Source: Terriglobia bacterium
GTDB taxonomy: Bacteria > Acidobacteriota > Terriglobia > Bryobacterales > Bryobacteraceae
NCBI GenBank assembly: GCA_020073345.1
Contig: JAIQFI010000004.1
Span: forward strand, 1-64,000
DNA: 64,000 bases
Direction: 5' to 3'
In this document: in pieces, positions 14,615 through 25,084 of the stretch
How positions within the stretch are numbered: the first letter of the stretch is position 1
Layout: every line of letters starts with the position of its first letter
The notes under the pieces: model-generated
What the model was told of the DNA's origin: nothing
Databases searched by the model: none
What the model saw: the letters and a program-made list of their open reading frames with translations, nothing else
Position numbers and translations under genes: made by a program

Positions 14615-15049
14615 CTACAACTGCTCGCGCGCAGCCTGCGTAGCCAGCTCGTCGGCGCGATTGTTGTCCTCGTGGTCGGCGTGGCCCTTGGTCCAGGTCC
14701 AGTGGACGTGATGCCGCGCGACCTGCTCATCGAGCTCCTCCCAAAGGTCCTGGTTCAGCACCGGCTTTTTCGAGCTGGTCTTCCAGCCGTTTTTCTTCCA
14801 GCCGTGGATCCACTGGGTGATCCCATTCTTGACGTATTGAGAATCCGTGACCACTTCCGTGGAGCACGGTTCGCGCACGGCCTTCAGTCCCTCGATGACA
14901 GCCGTCAGCTCCATGCGGTTATTGGTGGTGTGCGGCTCGGATCCCACCAGCTCGCGTTTGTGGTGGTTATAGCGCAGCAGGCAGGCCCATCCTCCCGGGC
15001 CGGGATTGCCCAGGCAGGCCCCGTCTGTAATGAGCTGAACGTGTTTCAA
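14615..15049 (-). CDS. rnhA: ribonuclease HI
   Basis: Degrades the RNA strand of RNA-DNA hybrids in the cytoplasm. The 144-residue protein has all catalytic residues: D9 (TDGACLGNPG), E47 (NRMEL), D69 (TDSQYV), H123 and D133 (NRADELA), plus the basic handle region WKKNGWKTSSKKP. The start is TTG at 15049; GGCGGCGG lies just upstream. It follows the dus gene by 12 bp on the same strand, so the two are probably cotranscribed. Confidence 0.95.
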   Translation of the reverse strand: MKHVQLITDGACLGNPGPGGWACLLRYNHHKRELVGSEPHTTNNRMELTAVIEGLKAVREPCSTEVVTDSQYVKNGITQWIHGWKKNGWKTSSKKPVLNQDLWEELDEQVARHHVHWTWTKGHADHEDNNRADELATQAAREQL

Positions 15050-15061
15050 TCCGCCGCCGCC

Positions 15062-16066
15062 CTATTGGACCACCATCAATTCGCGCTCGAAGAAGGCGTC
15101 CACGGTATCCAGGATTCCGGCCGCATCGTGAAGATGATAGATGTCGGCACGAAGCTTGGAGCCGTTGCGAACGCCGTGGGTGAAATACGTGGCGAACTGT
15201 TTCATCTTCCCGACCGCATCCGGAGACTGGTGATCGAGCAGCATGGAATAATAGCGCCGCATGATCTCGTAGCGGGCGTTTTCCGAGGGTGTTTCGTAAC
15301 TGCCGGTGGCGATGTAATCGGAAATCTGGCGAAAGATCCAAGGATTAGACGACGCCGCGCGGCCGATCATCACCGCGTCGCAGCCGGTTACCTCCACCAT
15401 CCGCATCGCGTCCTGGGGCGTGAGGATATCGCCGTTGCCAATCACCGGGATCTTCACCGCGGCCTTTACTTCGGCGATGCGGGTCCAATCGGCGTGACCG
15501 CTATAGCCCTGCTCGCGCGTACGCGGGTGCAGCGCGATGGCCGACAGCCCGCAATCTTCGGCCAGCTTGGCCATCTGCACATTGACCAGTTCCTTGTCAT
15601 TCCAACCGGCGCGGAATTTCATGGTTAGCGGGATGGAAATAGCCGACTTGACGGAGCGCAGAAGTTGTTCAACCAAGGGAAGGTCGCGCAGCAGCCCTGA
15701 TCCTCCGTTGCACCGGACCACTTTCTTAACCGGGCACCCGAAGTTGATATCGACGTGGTCGAAGCCCAGATCCTGGCAATAGCGCGCGGCGTCGGCCATC
15801 ACCTGCGGATCGGAGCCGAACAATTGCGCGGAGATGGGATGTTCGTCGGGTTCGAAGTACAGATAGCGAAACGCGCGCGTCGGCCTGCTGGATTTGGCGG
15901 TCGCCAGAACGCCGTGCGAGCTGGTGAACTCGGTCATGATGAGACCGCATCCGCCCTGCGAGCGGATCAGGCGGCGAAATACGGTATCGGTCACGCCGAC
16001 CATGGGCGCAAGCACGGTCGCCGGCTGTATTTGGGTGCCTCCGATGTGAAAGCCGCGCGGAAACAT
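15062..16066 (-). CDS. dusB: tRNA-dihydrouridine synthase, DusB type
   Basis: An FMN enzyme that reduces uridines in the D loop of tRNA. The 334-residue protein has the TIM-barrel signature APMVGVTDTVFR, the catalytic Cys in INFGCPVKKVV (about residue 110), KFRAGW, HPRTREQGYSG for phosphate binding and IGNGDI/IGRAA near the flavin. Length and motifs fit the DusB/Dus family. It is followed by rnhA, and its promoter lies in the 60 bp shared with the divergent ferredoxin gene. Confidence 0.93.
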   Translation of the reverse strand: MFPRGFHIGGTQIQPATVLAPMVGVTDTVFRRLIRSQGGCGLIMTEFTSSHGVLATAKSSRPTRAFRYLYFEPDEHPISAQLFGSDPQVMADAARYCQDLGFDHVDINFGCPVKKVVRCNGGSGLLRDLPLVEQLLRSVKSAISIPLTMKFRAGWNDKELVNVQMAKLAEDCGLSAIALHPRTREQGYSGHADWTRIAEVKAAVKIPVIGNGDILTPQDAMRMVEVTGCDAVMIGRAASSNPWIFRQISDYIATGSYETPSENARYEIMRRYYSMLLDHQSPDAVGKMKQFATYFTHGVRNGSKLRADIYHLHDAAGILDTVDAFFERELMVVQ

Positions 16067-16115
16067 TATGCATCTATTTTAGCGTGGGAGGCCAATCCAT
16101 GCGTCACCCGGCTTG

Positions 16116-16121
16116 TATAAT
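16116..16121 (+). promoter_or_regulatory. consensus -10 TATAAT five bases before the ferredoxin GTG
   Basis: A perfect TATAAT is followed by CAAGT and then the GTG start at 16127. No Shine-Dalgarno can fit between them. This is the clearest leaderless-type arrangement on the plus strand. Confidence 0.5.
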
Positions 16122-16126
16122 CAAGT

Positions 16127-16549
16127 GTGTCTTCCGATGACCCGCGAGCTCGATTGCCGGAAATCGCCCGCAACCTGGGCATCGGTAAAATCCAGCGCCA
16201 TATTTTCCTGTGCGCCGAGCAGACCAAACCCAAGTGCGCTCCCCCCGAAATCACGGGCCCGTCCTGGGATTACCTCAAGAGACGTCTCACCGAGACTAAA
16301 CTGACCGGCGCCGAGGGCTGTGTCTACCGGACCAAGGCCAACTGCCTGCGGATCTGCGAGCAAGGACCCATCGCCGTGGTCTATCCCGACGGCGTTTGGT
16401 ACCGCTCGGCTACTCCGGAAGTGCTCGAACGCATCCTGCAGGAGCACCTGATTGGCGGCCAACCGGTCGAGGAATTCGTTTTAGCTGTGAACCCCCTTAC
16501 ACCTGCTATAAATGTTCCGTTAACCTTGCAGAAGGAGCCAAACCTGTGA
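16127..16549 (+). CDS. thioredoxin-like [2Fe-2S] ferredoxin
   Basis: A 140-residue electron carrier. The Cys pattern [11 protein letters not shown] ... [13 protein letters not shown], followed by [13 protein letters not shown], is that of the thioredoxin-fold [2Fe-2S] ferredoxins (NuoE-like, Shethna type). The start is GTG. Its stop overlaps the GTG of the next gene as GTGA, and a strong GAAGGAG lies inside its 3' end, so the exported hydrolase is cotranslated from the same mRNA. A shared physiological role is not obvious. Confidence 0.85.
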
Positions 16550-18894
16550 GATCGAAACCCAGCGCATCATTCCAAAACACTGGCCAAAACACTGGCCAAA
16601 ACACTGGCCAAAACACTGGCCAAAACACTGGCCAGTTCAGCCGCCGCGACTTTATGGCGACCAGCCTGGCCGTCCCGGCGGGACTCGCGGGGTTGATGGC
16701 CAGTCCCGAAGCCGTGGCTGCCACGACGGGCGGTCCCGTGCTCGAGATCGCCGAGTGGAGCTTTTTCTGGGTGGGCGTCGAGCGCGCGACACTGCCCGCT
16801 GCCGCGAATGCCAAGGGCGAACCCAGCCCCATCGTCAACGGCAAACAGATGTACATCGAGTATCAGATTCCCGCCAAGGTGAAGCATCCCTATCCGATCG
16901 TGCTGGTGCACGGCGGCGGCGGGCAGGGTCTGGATTGGATGGGCACGCCGGATGGCCGTCGTGGCTGGGCCACCATACTGCTTGAGGAAGGCTACAAGGT
17001 TTACGTGGTCGATCGCCCCGGTCACGGACGTTCGCCGTATCATCCCGATCTGCACGGCGGCTGGCCCGGTGCGCAGACGCTCGAATCCATCTCCAATCTG
17101 TTTACTCCTCAAAGAGCCAAGCTTCCCCCTGGCGGCCGCGGGTTTGGAAATTCGCCGAACGCCAAGCTGCACAATCAGTGGCCGGGAACGGGCGCCGGTG
17201 CGGTCGGCACACCCGAGCTGGCCCAGTTGGTCGCCTCGCAAGGCGGGTCCTTCGGCAACGGTATGGGCTTGATCAAGGATTCGCAGGTCGCCGTGTGGCA
17301 GAAAAACGGCGCGGAAATGCTGGATAAGATCGGACCCGCCGTCATCATGACCCACTCGGCCGGCGGACCGTTCGGCTTCTACGTTCTCGAAGCGCGTCCC
17401 AAGCTGGTGAAGGGAATCGTGGTGGTCGAAGGCGCGCAGGGCTCGGCCGCGTTCGGACCGAATCGCTGGGGCTTGATCAACCTGCCAGTGGAGCTCGATC
17501 CACCGGTGACGGATCCCTCACAAGTCAAGATGAAACAGGTCCAGCCTACGGAGGCCGACGCCAAGCTGGGCATCGGTCCCTACAATATCCAGGAAGAACC
17601 GGCCCGCAAGCTCAAGAACTGGAGAGATTGCGCCATCTGCGTATACACCTCCGAAGCGTCTTTCATTACTCCCAATCCCGGCGCGGTCGCCTTTCTGAAG
17701 CAGGCGGGAGTTCACGCCGAGGAAATCCGGCTGGCCGACCTCGGCATCCACGGCAACGGCCACTTGATGATGGGCGAAAAGAACAACCGCGAGACGCTGA
17801 AGCCGATCCTGACCTGGCTCGACAAGAACGTCAACCATTTGGCTCCGCTGCCCAAATACATCCCCAAGAAGGGCGACGATTCCACCGCCATGAAGCTCGC
17901 CGACCAGGGATTCTTCTGGGTCGGCATGGAAGAGAAGAAGATTCAAGCCGGCACGATCCTGGTGGGCCAGACCTTCGTGCAATACCTGAAGCCGCAGCAG
18001 AAGCGGCATCGCTTCCCGGTGGTGCTGGTGCACGGCGGCGCGGGCCAGGGCACGCACTATATGGGCATCGGAGGGAATGCCGGCTGGGCGCATTACTTCG
18101 TGCAGGCCGGCTACGACACCTACATTATGGATCGCGTCGGCCACGGCCGGGCGATTTATCATCCGGACGCGCTGGGTGCGATCAGTCCGGTGTTCAACTA
18201 CGCCAGCATCACGGCCGACTTCAAGCGCGCCGCCGTCGATCCCAATCGCCGCTGGGCGGGAACCGGCGACGTCGGCGATCCTCTCATCGATCAATTCCAG
18301 GCCGGGCAGAACTCGACGCCCACCGACAATGCTCTGGCGCAGAGGCTGTGGGCTCGAGCGGGCGGCGAGCTGCTGGATAAGATCGGGCCCGCGATTGTCA
18401 TGGTCCACTCCGCGGGCGGACCATTCAGCTGGCTGATCGCCAACGAGCGCCCCGGCATGGTCAAAGCGATTCTGAACGTCGAGGGCGCAACTCCGCTATT
18501 TCCGCCTGCCGGCAAGGGCGGACCCGCGTGGCCGCTGACTGCGATCCCGTTACAGTACGATCCGCCGGTGACGGATCCCGCGCAATTTGCGACCAAAGAA
18601 GTTACGGCTTCAGACGGCGGTGCTGCTTATCGCATCCAAGCCGATGGGTCGGTAAAGAAGCTCAAGAACCTGCAGGGTGTGCCTATCGCCTACATCGTCG
18701 CGGAGCGCTCCACGCGCCGCGCCGAGCCCGTCGTCGCATTCCTCAAGCAGGCCGGCTGCGATGCCGAAGCCTTGAACCTGAAGGACAAGGGCATCTTCGG
18801 GAATGGCCACTTCATGATGCTCGAGAGCAATCGCAAGCAGGTATTCGAGGCGATCCGCGGGTGGCTGGAAGCCAAGGTCCCGCCCAAGGCGTAA
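16546..18894 (+). CDS. Tat-exported protein of two fused alpha/beta hydrolase domains
   Basis: A 782-residue protein. The GTG start at 16546 has GAAGGAG 9 nt before it. The N-terminus has five QNTG repeats, then a twin-arginine signal ([15 protein letters not shown]). Two homologous hydrolase domains follow. Domain 1 (about 45-435) has [23 protein letters not shown] and [10 protein letters not shown]. Domain 2 (about 445-780) has [23 protein letters not shown] and [10 protein letters not shown]. The nucleophile would be the Ser in HSAGG, with late His in GNGH (both halves). Probably a periplasmic esterase or lactonase-type enzyme; substrate unknown. Confidence 0.88.
16573..16632 (+). repeat. 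five exact 12-bp tandem repeats (QNTG codons)
   Basis: CAAAACACTGGC is repeated five times without a change, in frame, between the start codon and the twin-arginine signal. Copy changes would lengthen the leader by four residues each without breaking the frame. Confidence 0.95.
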
Positions 18895-18933
18895 ATTCCA
18901 AAAGGCGAAAAAACGTCAGACGAAATTGTAGCG

Positions 18934-18960
18934 GTCGGGAGCCCGACTCTTTAATTCTTT
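18934..18960 (+). terminator. possible rho-independent terminator
   Basis: GTCGGG (18934-18939) pairs with CCCGAC (18942-18947), followed by TCTTTAATTCTTT. It lies 40 bp after the hydrolase stop. The stem is short and the tail is interrupted, so it is only moderately convincing. Confidence 0.45.
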
Positions 18961-19448
18961 AATCCCGGCAACCCCGACACTGGACCTACGTACGCCAGCA
19001 GCCGACCCGCGGTGATCGCGCCGAGCCAGCAGATCAAAGAGATGCAGGCCAAACCCTTGGCCGTGCCCGAAACCGGACCCTGGTCCAGCTGCGGATCGCC
19101 GAACACCTTCTTCCGCATGATCTTCAGGACCACGATTCCGGAGAAGACGAACACCATCTTCACCCAAAAGTCCGGATTCGTACCCTTGGTGGTGGCATCC
19201 CCCATCAGTAAGCTGGTGCCGGTGACTGCGTTAATCGCAAATCCCCACCACATCCACGGATACAGCCGCTCCATCGGCTTGATAGGAATCTTGGGTGAAA
19301 GGCCCAGAAGCCGAAGGTCGATGACCGCGTTGAACCCCGCCACTAGCGCCATTCCTATGCTGTGCATGAACAGAATTGTAGAATAGGGAGACTGCAGCAC
19401 CCACATGCTGAAAGGCAACTGCTCGATCTTTGAAAGAAACTCCGTCAT
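18951..19448 (-). CDS. four-segment membrane protein, DUF6644-like
   Basis: A 165-residue membrane protein with about four transmembrane helices. The pattern HSIGMALVAGFNAVIDLRLLGLSP, then YPWMWWGFAINAVTGTSLL, resembles the small DUF6644 membrane family. The conserved His in the second helix would suit heme or quinone contact, but this is inference. The same pattern occurs in the C-terminal half of the 320-residue protein two genes upstream, so they are paralogous. Third gene of a three-gene operon. Confidence 0.7.
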   Translation of the reverse strand: MTEFLSKIEQLPFSMWVLQSPYSTILFMHSIGMALVAGFNAVIDLRLLGLSPKIPIKPMERLYPWMWWGFAINAVTGTSLLMGDATTKGTNPDFWVKMVFVFSGIVVLKIMRKKVFGDPQLDQGPVSGTAKGLACISLICWLGAITAGRLLAYVGPVSGLPGLKN

Positions 19449-19453
19449 GCGCT

Positions 19454-19558
19454 TTAGTCCCTTTTCTCGTCCGCGCTTTTGTCGATCAAGTAGCCTACGA
19501 GACCCATGGCCAGGACAGTTCCAATGACGATGCTCACTACCATCACAGGGAGGAGCAT
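19454..19558 (-). CDS. 34-residue single-pass membrane protein
   Basis: Its ATG overlaps the upstream stop as TAATG, and its stop lies 5 bp before the next start, with AGGGA inside its 3' end serving that gene. The product is one hydrophobic helix (LLPVMVVSIVIGTVLAMGLV) followed by a charged tail (IDKSADEKRD). GGAGCATTA-type sequence within the upstream gene's end offers a ribosome site. Such small helices are often subunits of membrane complexes. Good context, but the size limits certainty. Confidence 0.6.
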   Translation of the reverse strand: MLLPVMVVSIVIGTVLAMGLVGYLIDKSADEKRD

Positions 19559-20520
19559 TAGAAGGCTTTCCCGAGGAACGGCAGCATGCGGCCGCAGAAG
19601 ATCACGCCGATCACCAGAACGAATGCCGAGGCCGCGACGAACTTGGCCGTGAGAGGCGCATCGTCTCCCGGCCCCAGCTCCCAGGGCTCGTCAAAAATCG
19701 TGAAGTACAGCACGTTGAGTCCGGCCAGCATCATCAACACCAGCTTCCATTGGAAAACGGTATTGGTGGTGTATTGATCGTAAGCCGCCACAAAGAAAAA
19801 CATACCCGTGATCATGTTGATTCCGAATCCCAGGACCCCCCATGGCAGCAGCCGGTGCAGGGCGTTGAAGGAGATGCTTTTCATCATGCCCAGCATTCGC
19901 AGATCGACGAAGGAAGCGATGCCGAAAAGCAGGCACAGCCCGACAAAATGCAGCGTCTCGCAGGTTGCCCATACCCACGTTTTGGCGATCACGAACGATC
20001 CCACCGCGCGCGCCAGCGGTTGTTCCCCGGCGGCCTGAGCCGCGGTGGCTTCCTGGGCCGACATGATCTCCGGATGCCGGATCTCGCCGCCGATGTTGGC
20101 GGCCTGCGACATCAGTCCGAATGTCACCAGCGAAAACAGCGCGACTGCCGCCAGGCTCCAGCGCGGAAAACGCGAAAGTCGCCGGGACTGCCACAGCCCG
20201 AGCCAAGCGAAGGCCCCCGTGATTTCCATGAAGACCAGCGCCAGCAGCGCCGCACCCTCATGTTTCTCGATCAAGGCTTTCGACACGCCGGGATCGGTGC
20301 AAGGACCCTTGGGCTGCCCCTTGCAAATCATCTCCTGGGCGGCATTTCCACTCATGTACGTGGGAAGCGCCAGCAGAGCGATTCCCAGGAATACCACCAG
20401 ACTGGCGCGCTTCAGGTCCTCGCTTTTTCCAGCCAGACCGAGCAGGAACAGGCCGATTCCAATGATCATGCCGACCGTCGGGAAATGATTCAGCAAAAGA
20501 TGGATGTGGGCAAGGTTCAT
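19558..20520 (-). CDS. polytopic membrane protein, DUF2231-like plus DUF6644-like halves
   Basis: A 320-residue protein with about eight hydrophobic segments. The N-terminal half has HLLLNHFPTVGMIIGIGLFLLG, IEKHEGAALLAL and GGEIRHPE, with His positions reminiscent of DUF2231/cytochrome b561-like membrane proteins. The C-terminal half (from about 165: ETLHFVGLCLLFGIASFVDLRML in pattern) matches the 165-residue paralog downstream. TAGAGT lies 5 nt before the ATG. Probably a membrane electron-transfer or sensor component; function unproven. Confidence 0.65.
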   Translation of the reverse strand: MNLAHIHLLLNHFPTVGMIIGIGLFLLGLAGKSEDLKRASLVVFLGIALLALPTYMSGNAAQEMICKGQPKGPCTDPGVSKALIEKHEGAALLALVFMEITGAFAWLGLWQSRRLSRFPRWSLAAVALFSLVTFGLMSQAANIGGEIRHPEIMSAQEATAAQAAGEQPLARAVGSFVIAKTWVWATCETLHFVGLCLLFGIASFVDLRMLGMMKSISFNALHRLLPWGVLGFGINMITGMFFFVAAYDQYTTNTVFQWKLVLMMLAGLNVLYFTIFDEPWELGPGDDAPLTAKFVAASAFVLVIGVIFCGRMLPFLGKAF

Positions 20521-20566
20521 ACGTGACTCTAAAAACGCACCTCAGTCTCGCCTGTTGATTTTCGGG

Positions 20567-21457
20567 CTATCGTGCTGTGCAGACCGACGGGCTCCACTTG
20601 GATCCATCCGGTTCTTTCTTGAAATGAGTACTCGTGAGAAACTCCTGCGTCAGATATTGCGGATCGTTTACGATCGTGCTGACGATCAGCAATGTCTCGC
20701 CATCCGGCTCCGTGACTTTGTCGAAATTTTCCGTGAGCACGGTATTGGCGCTGTACGGCACTCCGTTCTTGCGCAGATATCCGGGCTTCATATGCGTCGT
20801 GACAACGTGGAGCGAACCAGGCCGGACCGGCTGGGGACCTGCTTTGGTCGGCTCGGGAGGCCCCCCCGTGAGTCCGGCGCCGCCGCCCGGCAATCCGAAC
20901 ACGCCCCGGCCGCGTGGAAGCCCTTCCCAGGACGCGACTGAATAGCCCTGATACCCCGCATCGCCCGAGGCCGGCGGAGTCCCGCCGAAGTGCAACAGCC
21001 GGGTCTGGGTCCCCGCGTCGAAATCGATCTTCAGGGTGTTGTCGTCCTGCCAGTCGATGTGCAAGCGTCCCGGCACGCGCACGATTGCGGCTGCTCCGTA
21101 GGATTTGCACTGCTCGCCTGCCGCCTCGTCCTTGGCTGGATCCCAGTTGTTAGCCGCCTGCTTGCCTTGATTGTTGACCGGGACACTCGCGGTGTCGCCC
21201 TTGGCGGGGGTCACCATGCGATAGAGCCAATCTTCCGTCACCAGCGAAACCCAATAACCGGTGATGTCGATGGGAGCGGCCGCGCGAGGTACCGCGGGAG
21301 CCGCGGGTGCGCCACCGCCTCGACCGCCTCCGCCGCCGCCCTTACCTTGGCCTCCGCCACCGCCGCCGCCTTGCGCGAGCATGTACACCGGTATCGCGAG
21401 TGAAAGCAGCAACGCCATCACCGACAGCCAAGGTCTCGTACGAGTTGTCTGGTTCAT
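20567..21457 (-). CDS. exported protein with Gly-rich tract and conserved C-terminal domain
   Basis: A 296-residue protein. Signal peptide (VMALLLSLAIPVYMLAQ), then a Gly/Arg/Lys-rich tract (residues about 30-50), then DITGYWVSLVTEDWLYRM. The C-terminal half (LHVVTTHMKPGYLRKNGVPYS ... ENF ... DPQYL in pattern) is shared with the 23.1 kb and 55.3 kb proteins. No catalytic motif seen. GAGGA lies 8 nt before the start. It heads a string of exported proteins on this strand. Confidence 0.6.
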   Translation of the reverse strand: MNQTTRTRPWLSVMALLLSLAIPVYMLAQGGGGGGGQGKGGGGGGRGGGAPAAPAVPRAAAPIDITGYWVSLVTEDWLYRMVTPAKGDTASVPVNNQGKQAANNWDPAKDEAAGEQCKSYGAAAIVRVPGRLHIDWQDDNTLKIDFDAGTQTRLLHFGGTPPASGDAGYQGYSVASWEGLPRGRGVFGLPGGGAGLTGGPPEPTKAGPQPVRPGSLHVVTTHMKPGYLRKNGVPYSANTVLTENFDKVTEPDGETLLIVSTIVNDPQYLTQEFLTSTHFKKEPDGSKWSPSVCTAR

Positions 21458-21506
21458 TCCTTGTGTCCTCAGGCTTGGTTCCCTCGCGAATCCGGAAGGC
21501 CAGCGT

Positions 21507-21920
21507 CTAGTTGAACGTCTGGTTCCCCACCGGCCAGGTCCATCCGTCCGACGGCCGGGTGATGCTGCGCATCCGCAGCCGGTAATCGTCCGCGTTGCGT
21601 CCCGGGCTGCCGACGACCTTGACTTTGTCGCCGACTTTCAGCGATCCGGTGCGCACACCCTGCTGCGCCAGCTGCCCGGCGGCGCCCCACTCGATAGACC
21701 ACCGGATGGCCTCGCCCGTCTTGGGATCCTTTTTCGTCGCGTCTTCCACGTGCACGAAGGAGTGCGGATTCCGGACCAGAAACGCCACCAGCGTGCCCTC
21801 AATCGTTACCGGCGCGGCGTCTTCCAGGTAGGTTCCCGCAAAGGAATGATGCGCCGACATGGGCGTTGCGATAAACATGAGACCAGCCGCCGCTGCGATG
21901 ATCGCGAGCTTCGTTTTCAT
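21507..21920 (-). CDS. DUF6152-type exported protein
   Basis: A 137-residue protein: signal peptide ending SAHHSFAGTY, then VTIEGTLVAFLVRNPHSFVHVE and KVGDKVKVVGSPGR, the OB-like beta pattern of DUF6152 proteins. The His pair at the mature N-terminus is typical and may bind metal. Strong GGAGGG nine bases before the start. Function of the family is unknown. A homologous module forms the N-terminus of the 55.3 kb protein. Confidence 0.72.
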   Translation of the reverse strand: MKTKLAIIAAAAGLMFIATPMSAHHSFAGTYLEDAAPVTIEGTLVAFLVRNPHSFVHVEDATKKDPKTGEAIRWSIEWGAAGQLAQQGVRTGSLKVGDKVKVVGSPGRNADDYRLRMRSITRPSDGWTWPVGNQTFN

Positions 21921-22021
21921 TTAAGATAACCCTCCAACTCTCAATTTCGATACAACAAACCGCCTGACCCTGCCACCTGAAGCCTATCACGGGAGCGCCG
22001 CAGCCTAACGATCCGCTGACC

Positions 22022-22041
22022 GTCAGTGACCGGTCACTGAC
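22022..22041. repeat. perfect 20-bp palindrome
   Basis: GTCAGTGACCGGTCACTGAC is its own reverse complement. It lies 16 bp after the MBL-fold gene on the minus strand and about 100 bp before the DUF6152 gene. No T-run follows on the minus strand, so it is not a normal terminator for the MBL-fold gene. It may be an operator or a REP-like element. Confidence 0.85.
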
Positions 22042-22056
22042 CCCGTCTATTTCTTC

Positions 22057-23115
22057 TCACTTCTTAGGTGTCAGGCTCCTAAATACCGCCTCTACAAACA
22101 TATCCGTCGTCCAGGGACCCGTGGTCGAGCCCCACCGTCCATCGTACTCAAAAGTCGGCTTCGCTTCCTTCACCTGGGCCAGCGTCTTCCCCTGCTTGAT
22201 CATGTTCTGCACCCGGTCCCGGATGATGGTCACCATGTCGCGATACTCCAGCACGTCATGCTCGTCGGTAAGGCGCCCATGGCCGGGGATCACGTAGGTT
22301 CCTCCCTCTTGCTCGTGCTTGGGGATGGTAATGTCCAGCACCACGTTCAGCGCCTTGATCACGCCCTGAATGTTTCCGCCCTTATCCACGTTGATCACCG
22401 GATAACTGTCCATGTTGAAGATGTCGCCGGTGGCAATCACGTCGGAGCGGCGGAAAAAGACCATGCTGTCGCCGTTGGTGTGGGCTGCCGGTTCGAACAT
22501 CACGATCACCGGCTCCTCGTTGAAAAAGATCTCTTTCTGTCCCTGGAAATAGGTCGTTGTGGGCAGCTTGTCGGCATTCGTATCGGCCTTGCCCTCGGCT
22601 GCCTCGCTCATCATGCGCAAGACGTTTTCCTGCGCCACGATGGTGGCTCCGTTCTCAAACGCCACGGCGCCGAGGTTCCCACCGATTACAGGCGCTCCAG
22701 CGCGCGATATCTTCGCATTGCCGTCCGTGTGATCCATGTCGGCGCTGGTGTTGATGATATAGCGAATCGGCTTGCTGGTCAGCTTCCGGATTTCCGCCAC
22801 GATCTTGTCGGAGGCTTCCTCGTATTGCGTGTCCACCACCAGAGCGCCCGAATCGCCGACCTGCACCGCGGTGTTTCCGCCCGGGCCGACGATCATATAC
22901 ACATTTCCCTGAACCTTGAGCGTATGGACTTCCGCGTTTGCCCAAGCAGGATTGGGTGGCCGGATCGCGGCTGGTGCGGGCGCTGCTTGCTTCCCGCCGC
23001 CTTTCCCCTTGCCTTGCGCATGGGCGACATCCGCCGAGCCGAACAGGATTAATACCGCGGCGAGAACGGCGGATGCGGCCAGCATGATTCTTGGCATCGC
23101 TTTACAGGTGGTCAT
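22057..23115 (-). CDS. exported MBL-fold hydrolase-like protein with altered metal motif
   Basis: A 352-residue protein: signal peptide to about residue 33, a Gly/Lys-rich stretch (GKGKGGGKQ), then a metallo-beta-lactamase fold. The canonical HxHxDH motif is here S124-A-D126-M-D128-H129, so the first two His are replaced. Later candidate ligands remain: His in EPAAHTNGD, Asp in ATGDIFN, His in IPGHGRL. It may bind one metal only, use a different metal, or be non-catalytic. The start overlaps the end of the upstream gene by 4 bp. Confidence 0.8.
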   Translation of the reverse strand: MTTCKAMPRIMLAASAVLAAVLILFGSADVAHAQGKGKGGGKQAAPAPAAIRPPNPAWANAEVHTLKVQGNVYMIVGPGGNTAVQVGDSGALVVDTQYEEASDKIVAEIRKLTSKPIRYIINTSADMDHTDGNAKISRAGAPVIGGNLGAVAFENGATIVAQENVLRMMSEAAEGKADTNADKLPTTTYFQGQKEIFFNEEPVIVMFEPAAHTNGDSMVFFRRSDVIATGDIFNMDSYPVINVDKGGNIQGVIKALNVVLDITIPKHEQEGGTYVIPGHGRLTDEHDVLEYRDMVTIIRDRVQNMIKQGKTLAQVKEAKPTFEYDGRWGSTTGPWTTDMFVEAVFRSLTPKK

Positions 23116-23975
23116 TTGGCTGCGCTCTTCAGCTTCTTCATGTATTCCGGATACATCGTCTGGGCGCCGCCCAAGGCCGCGTCCACCGGAATATGATACT
23201 TGTCCGCGAATTCATGCTCGAACGGATTATGTCCCGGCATAAAACTGGGGACCTTGGTAAGGTCCGCATTGGGCAGTTCCTCGACGTACTCGCAAGGCCA
23301 CAGCCAGTTTCCGCCTGAATTATTGTTGAGCACGTAGTCTTCGCTCTTGATCAGCGGCTCGGTGAGATACACCGGATCGGTCACCACGCTCACGTGCGTC
23401 AGGTGATTGTCGTGGCGGATGAAATGCTCCACCAGCGTGATCTTATCGCTCGACGGGATTCCGTTTCGCCGGTGCCAGCCCTGCTTGATGTGCGTCGTAT
23501 ACACCGTCAGGATATTGCCTTCCCACTTACCCGTGGAGAATCCCATCCAGGTGTGCGCGGCGTATTCCGGCGGATGCGGGCGGCCGTCCATGTAGATGGT
23601 GCGGTTCTGCTCGTAGGTGCTGGTGTATTGCCGAATCGCGACTAAGTCCTGCGTCTGCGGATCGCGCTCCTCCCAGACGCGAAGCTGCAGCGGCCCGCGA
23701 TAAATGTATGCCGCGGTGTGGACCTGGCACTGGTGCTCGGGCAGGCCCAGCCGGTCGGGATCCCAGCTCAAGGCCCATTGCCGGGCTGCCGCGTTGATCG
23801 GAATGCCAAGGTAATCCACCAGCGCCGGACCGGGAATACGCTCGTCCACGTCCTCCAGGTACTGGGGATTCCAGGTGCCCGATAAATCCACCTGGGCGAA
23901 TGCCGGGCCTGTCATCAGCGCCGAACAGAAAAGAATAAAAGAACCTGAGATCTTGGCACGATCGACGATGCCCAC
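23112..23975 (-). CDS. exported protein sharing a domain with the 20.6 and 55.3 kb proteins
   Basis: Start taken at GTG 23975, because GGAGGT lies just upstream and the signal peptide (SGSFILFCSALMTGPAFAQ) then begins the protein. An ATG at 24023 gives 16 more residues. The mature part begins VDLSGTWNPQ. The C-terminal part (GKWEGNILTVYTTHIKQGW ... GIPSSD ... TDPVYL in pattern) is the shared domain. No enzyme family recognised. First gene of the exported set, coupled by 4 bp to the MBL-fold gene. Confidence 0.65.
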   Translation of the reverse strand: MGIVDRAKISGSFILFCSALMTGPAFAQVDLSGTWNPQYLEDVDERIPGPALVDYLGIPINAAARQWALSWDPDRLGLPEHQCQVHTAAYIYRGPLQLRVWEERDPQTQDLVAIRQYTSTYEQNRTIYMDGRPHPPEYAAHTWMGFSTGKWEGNILTVYTTHIKQGWHRRNGIPSSDKITLVEHFIRHDNHLTHVSVVTDPVYLTEPLIKSEDYVLNNNSGGNWLWPCEYVEELPNADLTKVPSFMPGHNPFEHEFADKYHIPVDAALGGAQTMYPEYMKKLKSAAK

Positions 23976-24169
23976 CTTACCTCCAACCAACCTTGTTGAA
24001 TCGGTACACAGTAACACTACCATTCTATCGTAGTCAAGTTCCGTGCTTTCAGCGTAGTGGATACAGTACTGGATGCAAAAATTTGCCGCTGTTTAGCCGC
24101 CGTTGGAGGTAACCTTTGACGACGTCGGCTAGTCGAAAGCGGATGATCTTGCGCTAGAATTGTTGTGAC

Positions 24170-24187
24170 ATGCGTTACATTACGCAT
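24170..24187. promoter_or_regulatory. candidate HigA operator ATGCGT-N6-ACGCAT
   Basis: An inverted repeat of 6-bp arms sits just after a possible -10 (TAGAAT, 24155-24160) and 11 bp before the higB start. HigA proteins normally repress their own operon from such sites. Confidence 0.5.
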
Positions 24188-24198
24188 TACGGATCGGG

Positions 24199-24475
24199 AT
24201 GATCTGCTCGATACGCTACAAGGGACTGAAACCTTCACGAAGACAACGACGCACGTGGTGTGATGGCCGAGCATGTTATTAAGCTTCGCGATATTCTCGC
24301 GAGGCTCGAAGCGGCCAGGACTGTGACCGATATGGATATGCCCGGCTTCCGTCTGCATCCGCTCAAGGGCGAATTCAAAGGATTGTGGACGGTGACGGTT
24401 CGTGCAAACTGGCGGGTGATTTTCCGTTTTGCGGACTCCGATGCGTTCGTCGTGGATTATATGGACTACCACTGA
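24199..24475 (+). pseudogene. higB: HigB/RelE-type toxin, frameshifted near the N-terminus
   Basis: The ATG at 24199 opens MICSIRYKGLK, the usual HigB start, then runs out of frame at 24232. One base further the frame continues LHEDNDARGVMAEHVIKLRD, and on to the family end (GFRLHPLKGEFKGLW, VRANWRVIFRF, DYMDYH). Together they form a full-length HigB of about 92 residues. HigB is a ribosome-dependent mRNA endonuclease. The break is most easily a 2-bp deletion or a sequencing error. The downstream 71-codon frame has its own GTG/ATG but lacks the first strand. The intact higA follows 15 bp later. Confidence 0.75.
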
Positions 24476-24490
24476 TAGGAGCTTGAACAA

Positions 24491-24772
24491 ATGTCGATGA
24501 AGAACCCACCCCACCCCGGAGGCTTTGTACTCCGCCAGTGCATCGAGCCTTTGGGCTTGAGCATCACGGACGCCGCCGCCGCCCTGGGAGTCACGCGCAC
24601 GACGTTGTCAGAACTCGTGAACGAGAAGCGCGGCATATCACCTGAAATGGCTGTGAGGCTGTCGAAGGTCTTCGGCGGCAGCGCCGAAAGTTGGCTCGTG
24701 CAACAGGCGCAATATGATCTTGCCCACGTTCGGGCTGACCGGTTGAAGCTGAAAAGGCTGGAACTGGTTTAG
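24491..24772 (+). CDS. higA: HigA antitoxin (XRE family)
   Basis: A 93-residue antitoxin with the HigA start [20 protein letters not shown], the helix-turn-helix [26 protein letters not shown] and the family end [16 protein letters not shown]. It would neutralise HigB and repress the operon. GGAGCTT lies upstream of the ATG. Intact although the toxin frame is broken, as expected if loss of the antitoxin was harmful first. Confidence 0.92.
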
Positions 24773-24829
24773 AAACCCGGCGGTCCGCGGCGCTTGCTCC
24801 TGGCAAGGCTTTCCCGTACTCTGAAGGCG

Positions 24830-25084
24830 ATGGAAGTGCACTTTAAGCCCGACCTGCAAGCCAAGCTGGATGAGCTGGCAACGGAGACCGGCCGCCCATC
24901 GGATGAGTTGGTTGAGGATGTTGTTGCCGGATACTTCGACGAGCTGGCCCGGACGCGGGACATGCTCAATAGCCGCTATGACGACCTGAAGAGTGGTAGG
25001 GTGAAGCCCATTTCTCGCGACGAGGTTGTTGCCCACTTCCGCGAAAAGAGCGCGGCCGCTCGCCGGAACCCGCCTGGGTCATGA
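24830..25084 (+). CDS. antitoxin of a ParDE-like pair
   Basis: An 84-residue protein from ATG 24830. MEVHFKPDLQAKLDELATETGRP looks like a short beta strand followed by ribbon-helix-helix helices. The acidic middle (DELVEDVVAGYFDEL) and basic tail suit toxin binding. TACTCT lies 7 nt before the ATG. The toxin gene overlaps by ATGA. Confidence 0.75.
   Translation: MEVHFKPDLQAKLDELATETGRPSDELVEDVVAGYFDELARTRDMLNSRYDDLKSGRVKPISRDEVVAHFREKSAAARRNPPGS

Follow-up and report, generated by a model that had tools for sequence, protein, structure and literature searches.

The small gene occupies positions 19454 to 19558 on the minus strand of the window, the 64,000-nucleotide stretch of DNA that was analysed. 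Its 34-amino-acid product is MLLPVMVVSIVIGTVLAMGLVGYLIDKSADEKRD, with the motif [GA]-x2-[GA]-[YF]-[LF]-I-[DE]-[KR]-[SN] at the end of its helix. The ATG of the small gene shares one base with the TAA stop codon of the upstream gene A (19558 to 20520, minus strand), giving the sequence TAATG, and a gap of 5 bases (19449 to 19453) separates its own stop codon from the ATG of gene B (18951 to 19448, minus strand). The preliminary description had pointed out this junction and this spacing, and both are seen in the window sequence. It had also named one hydrophobic helix, and the product contains one hydrophobic stretch with a mean Kyte-Doolittle hydropathy of 2.49 over 19 residues. The product matched no Pfam or NCBIfam model at its cut-off and no PHROGs family at E ≤ 0.01. 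PDB sequence-profile searches with the small protein and with A returned nothing significant.

Gene A encodes a two-domain membrane protein of 320 amino acids with a DUF2231-like N-terminal half and a DUF6644/DUF2214-like C-terminal half. Gene B, the third gene of the A–small gene–B set, encodes a DUF6644-like membrane protein of 165 amino acids that scored 24.1 bits against DUF6644, under the curated cut-off of 27. Similarity between A and B was confined to the C-terminal half of A (31% over 132 amino acids), and the N-terminal half of A matched DUF2231 in 6 of 28 orthologues at E ≤ 1 (best 2.8e-4). The small gene had been placed between two paralogous DUF6644-like membrane proteins. Its position in the window is as described, but simple paralogy does not hold, since the N-terminal half of A is DUF2231-like.

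The conserved operon begins with a gene for a putative secreted protein (23112 to 24023), followed by genes for a metallo-beta-lactamase-fold protein (22057 to 23115), a DUF6152 protein (21507 to 21920) and another putative secreted protein (20567 to 21457), all on the minus strand. The latter has an N terminus that we read as signal-like and is weakly related to the product of 23112 to 24023. The closest NCBIfam models for the metallo-hydrolase belonged to a SoxH-related quinoprotein relay, with 84.5 bits against a cut-off of 280 bits. The block of two secreted proteins, metallo-beta-lactamase-fold protein, DUF6152 protein, A, small protein and B was kept in loci L004, L005, L006, L007 and L013. 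A second A–small gene–B copy in the window's genome (L119:5767-7881) is immediately preceded by a gene for a PQQ-dependent dehydrogenase (PF01011, E 7.8e-174). Such a dehydrogenase beside A was rejected as a general rule, as it was found in two places only among the fetched loci. On the plus strand of the window, a long frame at 16396 to 18894 encodes two alpha/beta-hydrolase domains in one protein and carries a short NTGQ repeat early in its sequence.

When the order was searched for homologues of A, 27 of 257 genomes gave matches (E ≤ 1e-20), some through the C-terminal half only, and full-length or nearly full-length copies of A in the order numbered 33 by manual count. Downstream of A, most loci contained a short frame encoding a single hydrophobic helix, with a GY(L/F)IDKS-like motif at its end. 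A profile built from an alignment of 31 of these short frames, run against this same set of genomes, gave 29 matches at E < 1e-11, the next match being at 2.8e-5. All 29 strong matches were located directly downstream of a full-length A homologue on the same strand, 2 to 105 bases from the match to A. A conserved short frame between orthologues, whose absence the preliminary description had named as a refutation, was thus present at 29 of the 33 full-length A genes. As the frames behind the profile were hand-picked, a leave-one-out test was run for each. The row of the member itself and all rows at least 60% identical to it were removed from the profile, and the member was compared with 300 dinucleotide shuffles of its own DNA. 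Every member (31/31) outscored all 300 of its shuffles. The copy in the window scored 38.2 bits and its best shuffle 4.5, which bears out the earlier view that the frame is a convincing gene.

Compared with its closest relative, the window's copy differed at 17 of 24.7 synonymous sites (pS 0.69) and at 7 of 77.3 nonsynonymous sites (pN 0.09). The differences in this pair lay mostly at third codon positions (6, 2 and 16 at the first, second and third positions, respectively). Across all pairs of 24 rows, pS was 0.68 and pN was 0.43; at these values distant pairs approach saturation, and the information comes from close pairs only.

The members were 30 to 48 amino acids long in 30 of 31 cases, the remaining one having 54, and their best mean hydropathy over 19 residues ranged from 2.42 to 3.14. 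Of the 31 members, 30 had lysine or arginine behind the helix and 4 had it in front. By the positive-inside rule, this distribution suggests an N-out, C-in arrangement, so that the small protein probably has its N terminus outside and its C terminus in the cytoplasm. A stripe of conserved positions along the helix was not significant (p 0.13 to 0.59, depending on the choice of columns).

The survey also covered 399 genomes of the wider class. A–small gene–B was the commonest order, seen at 30 of 68 distinct full-length A genes. The order B–A–small gene was found in loci L111, L156, L157 and L158, and in L164 and L165 A and the small gene were present while B was not found nearby. In L112, L113 and L114, from outside the window's family, the small gene was inverted relative to A, the two genes lying tail to tail; in L112 the small gene lay directly behind a metallo-beta-lactamase-fold gene instead. 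By the coordinates, its stop codon overlaps that of A in L112 and L114. This variation links the small gene to A. The place between two membrane genes stressed in the preliminary description is therefore true of the window and is not an essential feature. The small gene was not seen in six loci having only the N-terminal half of A (L105 to L109 and L121), which spoke against a tie to that half alone. The window's genome has 20 places that match A, most of them to the DUF6644-like half, and its strong matches to the small-gene profile were found only at its two full-length A genes.

The arrangement in the window, with its TAATG overlap and 5-base gap, would also suit a leader or coupling element, in which the short frame carries ribosomes from A to B and the peptide is irrelevant; the predominance of the A–small gene–B order agrees with this. 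We regard this explanation as unlikely. The amino acids are constrained, as the contrast between pN and pS in the closest pair indicates, and the motif is conserved. Moreover, the small gene also follows A where B is upstream or not found, and the inverted copies together with the B–A–small gene order argue against its being a leader or a mere by-product of the A–B junction.

A quick tree was built from the 68 A genes of the fetched loci, with identical sequences merged and internal stops written as X. By profile, 39 of these genes were accompanied by the small gene, 28 were not, and one (L058, where the contig ends) was not scorable. Clade I comprised 50 rows, 39 with the small gene, 10 without and one unknown, and clade II comprised 18 rows, none of which had it (0/18; SH-aLRT of the branch, 100). 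Presence and absence required 7 changes on the tree, and the mean of shuffled assignments was 22.2, with none of 500 shuffles as low. Presence of the small gene thus follows the clade of A. The 18 clade II loci, the 10 clade I loci lacking the gene and three loci known to have it were scanned mechanically for hydrophobic short frames up to 400 bases from the end of A. The scan recovered two diverged clade I copies missed by the profile (L151 and L152, each with a 36-amino-acid frame), both scored as absences on the tree. Scorable clade I genes with a small gene were therefore 39 of 49 by profile and 41 of 49 including these copies. Among the eight clade I genes without an intact copy, six had no frame in the scan; the small frame was internally deleted in L032/L179, and in L062/L159 its conserved end was lost. 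With 8 of 49 clade I genes lacking an intact copy, the small gene is not indispensable. At L015:5965-8426 the operon is otherwise like that of the window, but A is followed by three DUF6644-like genes and the small gene is missing; these extra genes are possibly a natural replacement for it. Judged from these sequence comparisons, the 34-codon frame is a real gene, conserved as a frame under purifying selection and tied to one clade of A.

Toxin-like and signalling membrane peptides are of similar length and also consist of a single helix, and one could be merely hitchhiking beside A. One relative does lie away from A, a lone copy on a 6.9 kb contig without A (L154:3218-3310). Near it we noted by eye a frame with a cytochrome c-like CxxCH motif. 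Yet the window's copy reached threshold with none of the toxin models of Pfam, NCBIfam and PHROGs, all 29 strong matches in the order adjoin A, and presence follows the clade of A, which leaves this explanation unlikely as well. Short frames are common in this DNA (121 ORFs of at least 25 amino acids overlap positions 15000 to 25000), and the frame might be no more than leftover hydrophobic codons at an operon junction, kept only through the flanking genes. This is very improbable given the leave-one-out scores, the contrast between synonymous and nonsynonymous sites and the persistence of the frame across variable gaps to A; furthermore, the scan found a hydrophobic short frame in just 1 of the 18 clade II loci. 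Equally improbable is an origin as a helix that was duplicated from one of the two neighbours and split off, to which the location between them and the hydrophobicity might point, as profile-profile comparison rejected a piece of either protein (probability 0.4% for A, 0.1% for B) and a fused form was not seen in the loci read.

The small gene stays beside A in many Acidobacteriota of soil. Relatives of A in titled records belonged to Bryobacteraceae, a family within Acidobacteriota, to Bryobacterales and to other Terriglobia, with one record titled Acidobacteria. An out-of-sample search of 396 genomes across the phylum found A-type genes beyond the class in four of them, with six full-length copies. 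The unchanged profile detected the small gene at three of these six A genes, all in another class, in the order A–small gene–B (L180 and L183) or B–A–small gene (L181); it detected none at L182, L185 and L186.

H87, H149 and H191 of A are invariant across the 67 labelled sequences of the tree, and H5, H7 and H12 occur in nearly all rows covering them. From the predicted helices and charged loops, we read H5, H7, H12, H87 and H149 as lying at one face, which is probably periplasmic. Such a conserved histidine face would suit a heme or metal site, although PDB searches gave no fold or sequence match supporting one. The AlphaFold2 model of A (mean pLDDT 84.1) had no Foldseek match in the PDB at E ≤ 0.001. 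A further comparison of A by VIA-align listed designed helical bundles, chains of cytochrome bd (Z 8.0 to 7.2) and other structures, all in a range that the tool treats as uninformative for helical bundles. The model of B (mean pLDDT 88.7) likewise matched nothing in the PDB at E ≤ 0.001, its best row being a bo3 oxidase chain at E 1.0. The alignment of B contained 22 rows after removal of L030 and L009, whose coordinates included a stop, and of L012, in which the contig end cuts B; L014, L035 and L036 were left out by our choice.

The small protein had been likened to small subunits such as CydX and CcoQ. CydX, CcoQ, CcoS and CcmD are described as small membrane proteins of this kind (PMC10903887). 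According to PMC4325964, CydX is a protein of about 30 to 50 amino acids with one hydrophobic helix, encoded with large membrane subunits; its sequence is variable with few fixed residues, and it is tied to one large-subunit type, the long-Q-loop CydA. The small protein resembles it in all these respects. CydX lies beside cydA and cydB, whereas the small gene lies beside DUF2231/DUF6644-like genes, and the CydX motif YxxWxxGx15E/D (PMC4325964) was found in 0 of 31 members, so the small protein was rejected as a CydX. CydY and CydZ, differing small helices found beside differing cydAB types (PMC4325964), give a precedent for more than one unrelated small subunit; their partner genes differ from those found here, and the likeness is one of description. 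Neither CydX nor FixQ was among the matches listed for the 31 members (25 of 35 Pfam families, E ≤ 10). The CcoQ/FixQ subunit of cbb3 oxidase has a single helix and a charged cytoplasmic tail, features that it has in common with the small protein. No oxidase gene was recognised in the window's operon with Pfam or NCBIfam. KdpF of the Kdp potassium ATPase is a comparable membrane peptide of about 29 amino acids encoded in an operon. Identity with KdpF was rejected, as the window's copy scored 12.7 of 53 bits against PRK14750.1 (E 0.085) and 11.8 of 26.85 bits against TIGR02115.1, and no kdp genes were recognised beside the small gene with Pfam or NCBIfam. Small single-helix accessory subunits are a kind of protein and not a homologous family, and the small protein shows their traits, namely one helix, a length of about 50 amino acids or less, and a conserved link to one large membrane protein (29/29 beside A). 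The earlier likeness therefore fits the linkage, the single helix and the clade of A, and does not extend to the features of CydX and KdpF tested here.

From its conserved linkage, the small protein is probably an accessory single-helix subunit of the DUF2231/DUF6644-like membrane protein A, usually together with B. In this role the small gene would encode a single-helix protein of the inner membrane. Its translation is probably coupled to that of A through shared bases or short gaps, so that the subunits would be produced together. Most likely the helix, with GxxGY(L/F)IDK at its end, would pack against A and stabilise A or its cofactor site, a role like that of CydX in cytochrome bd. We infer translation, membrane insertion, physical binding and stabilisation. 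More speculatively, A may be a b-type cytochrome or another metal protein that passes electrons from periplasmic (quino)proteins into the membrane. It is conceivable, and we put it forward tentatively, that the three proteins together make up an undescribed electron-transfer complex in the membrane of Acidobacteriota, which receives electrons from quinoproteins of the periplasm or from related secreted proteins; the small helix would then be a subunit specific to one clade and required for cofactor insertion or for stability. Since the SoxH-related scores are weak and the PQQ dehydrogenase is limited to its two places, the electron-transfer reading is a lead, and the redox role of the complex is one that we infer.

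The small proteins are a new family of single-helix membrane proteins, whose sequence could be contained in large small-protein catalogues such as PMC11364881. In a search of the open-licence PubMed Central literature on DUF6644, DUF6152, DUF2231, DUF2214 and small proteins of Acidobacteria, no paper among the results listed dealt with the system. The family adds a conserved single-helix member to a class of proteins often missed by gene callers, and it points to DUF2231-like and DUF6644-like domains as belonging to one probable complex. Since the small gene is naturally present or absent across the tree of A, the role of the small subunit can be put to the test, and expressing A or B without it may yield unstable protein.
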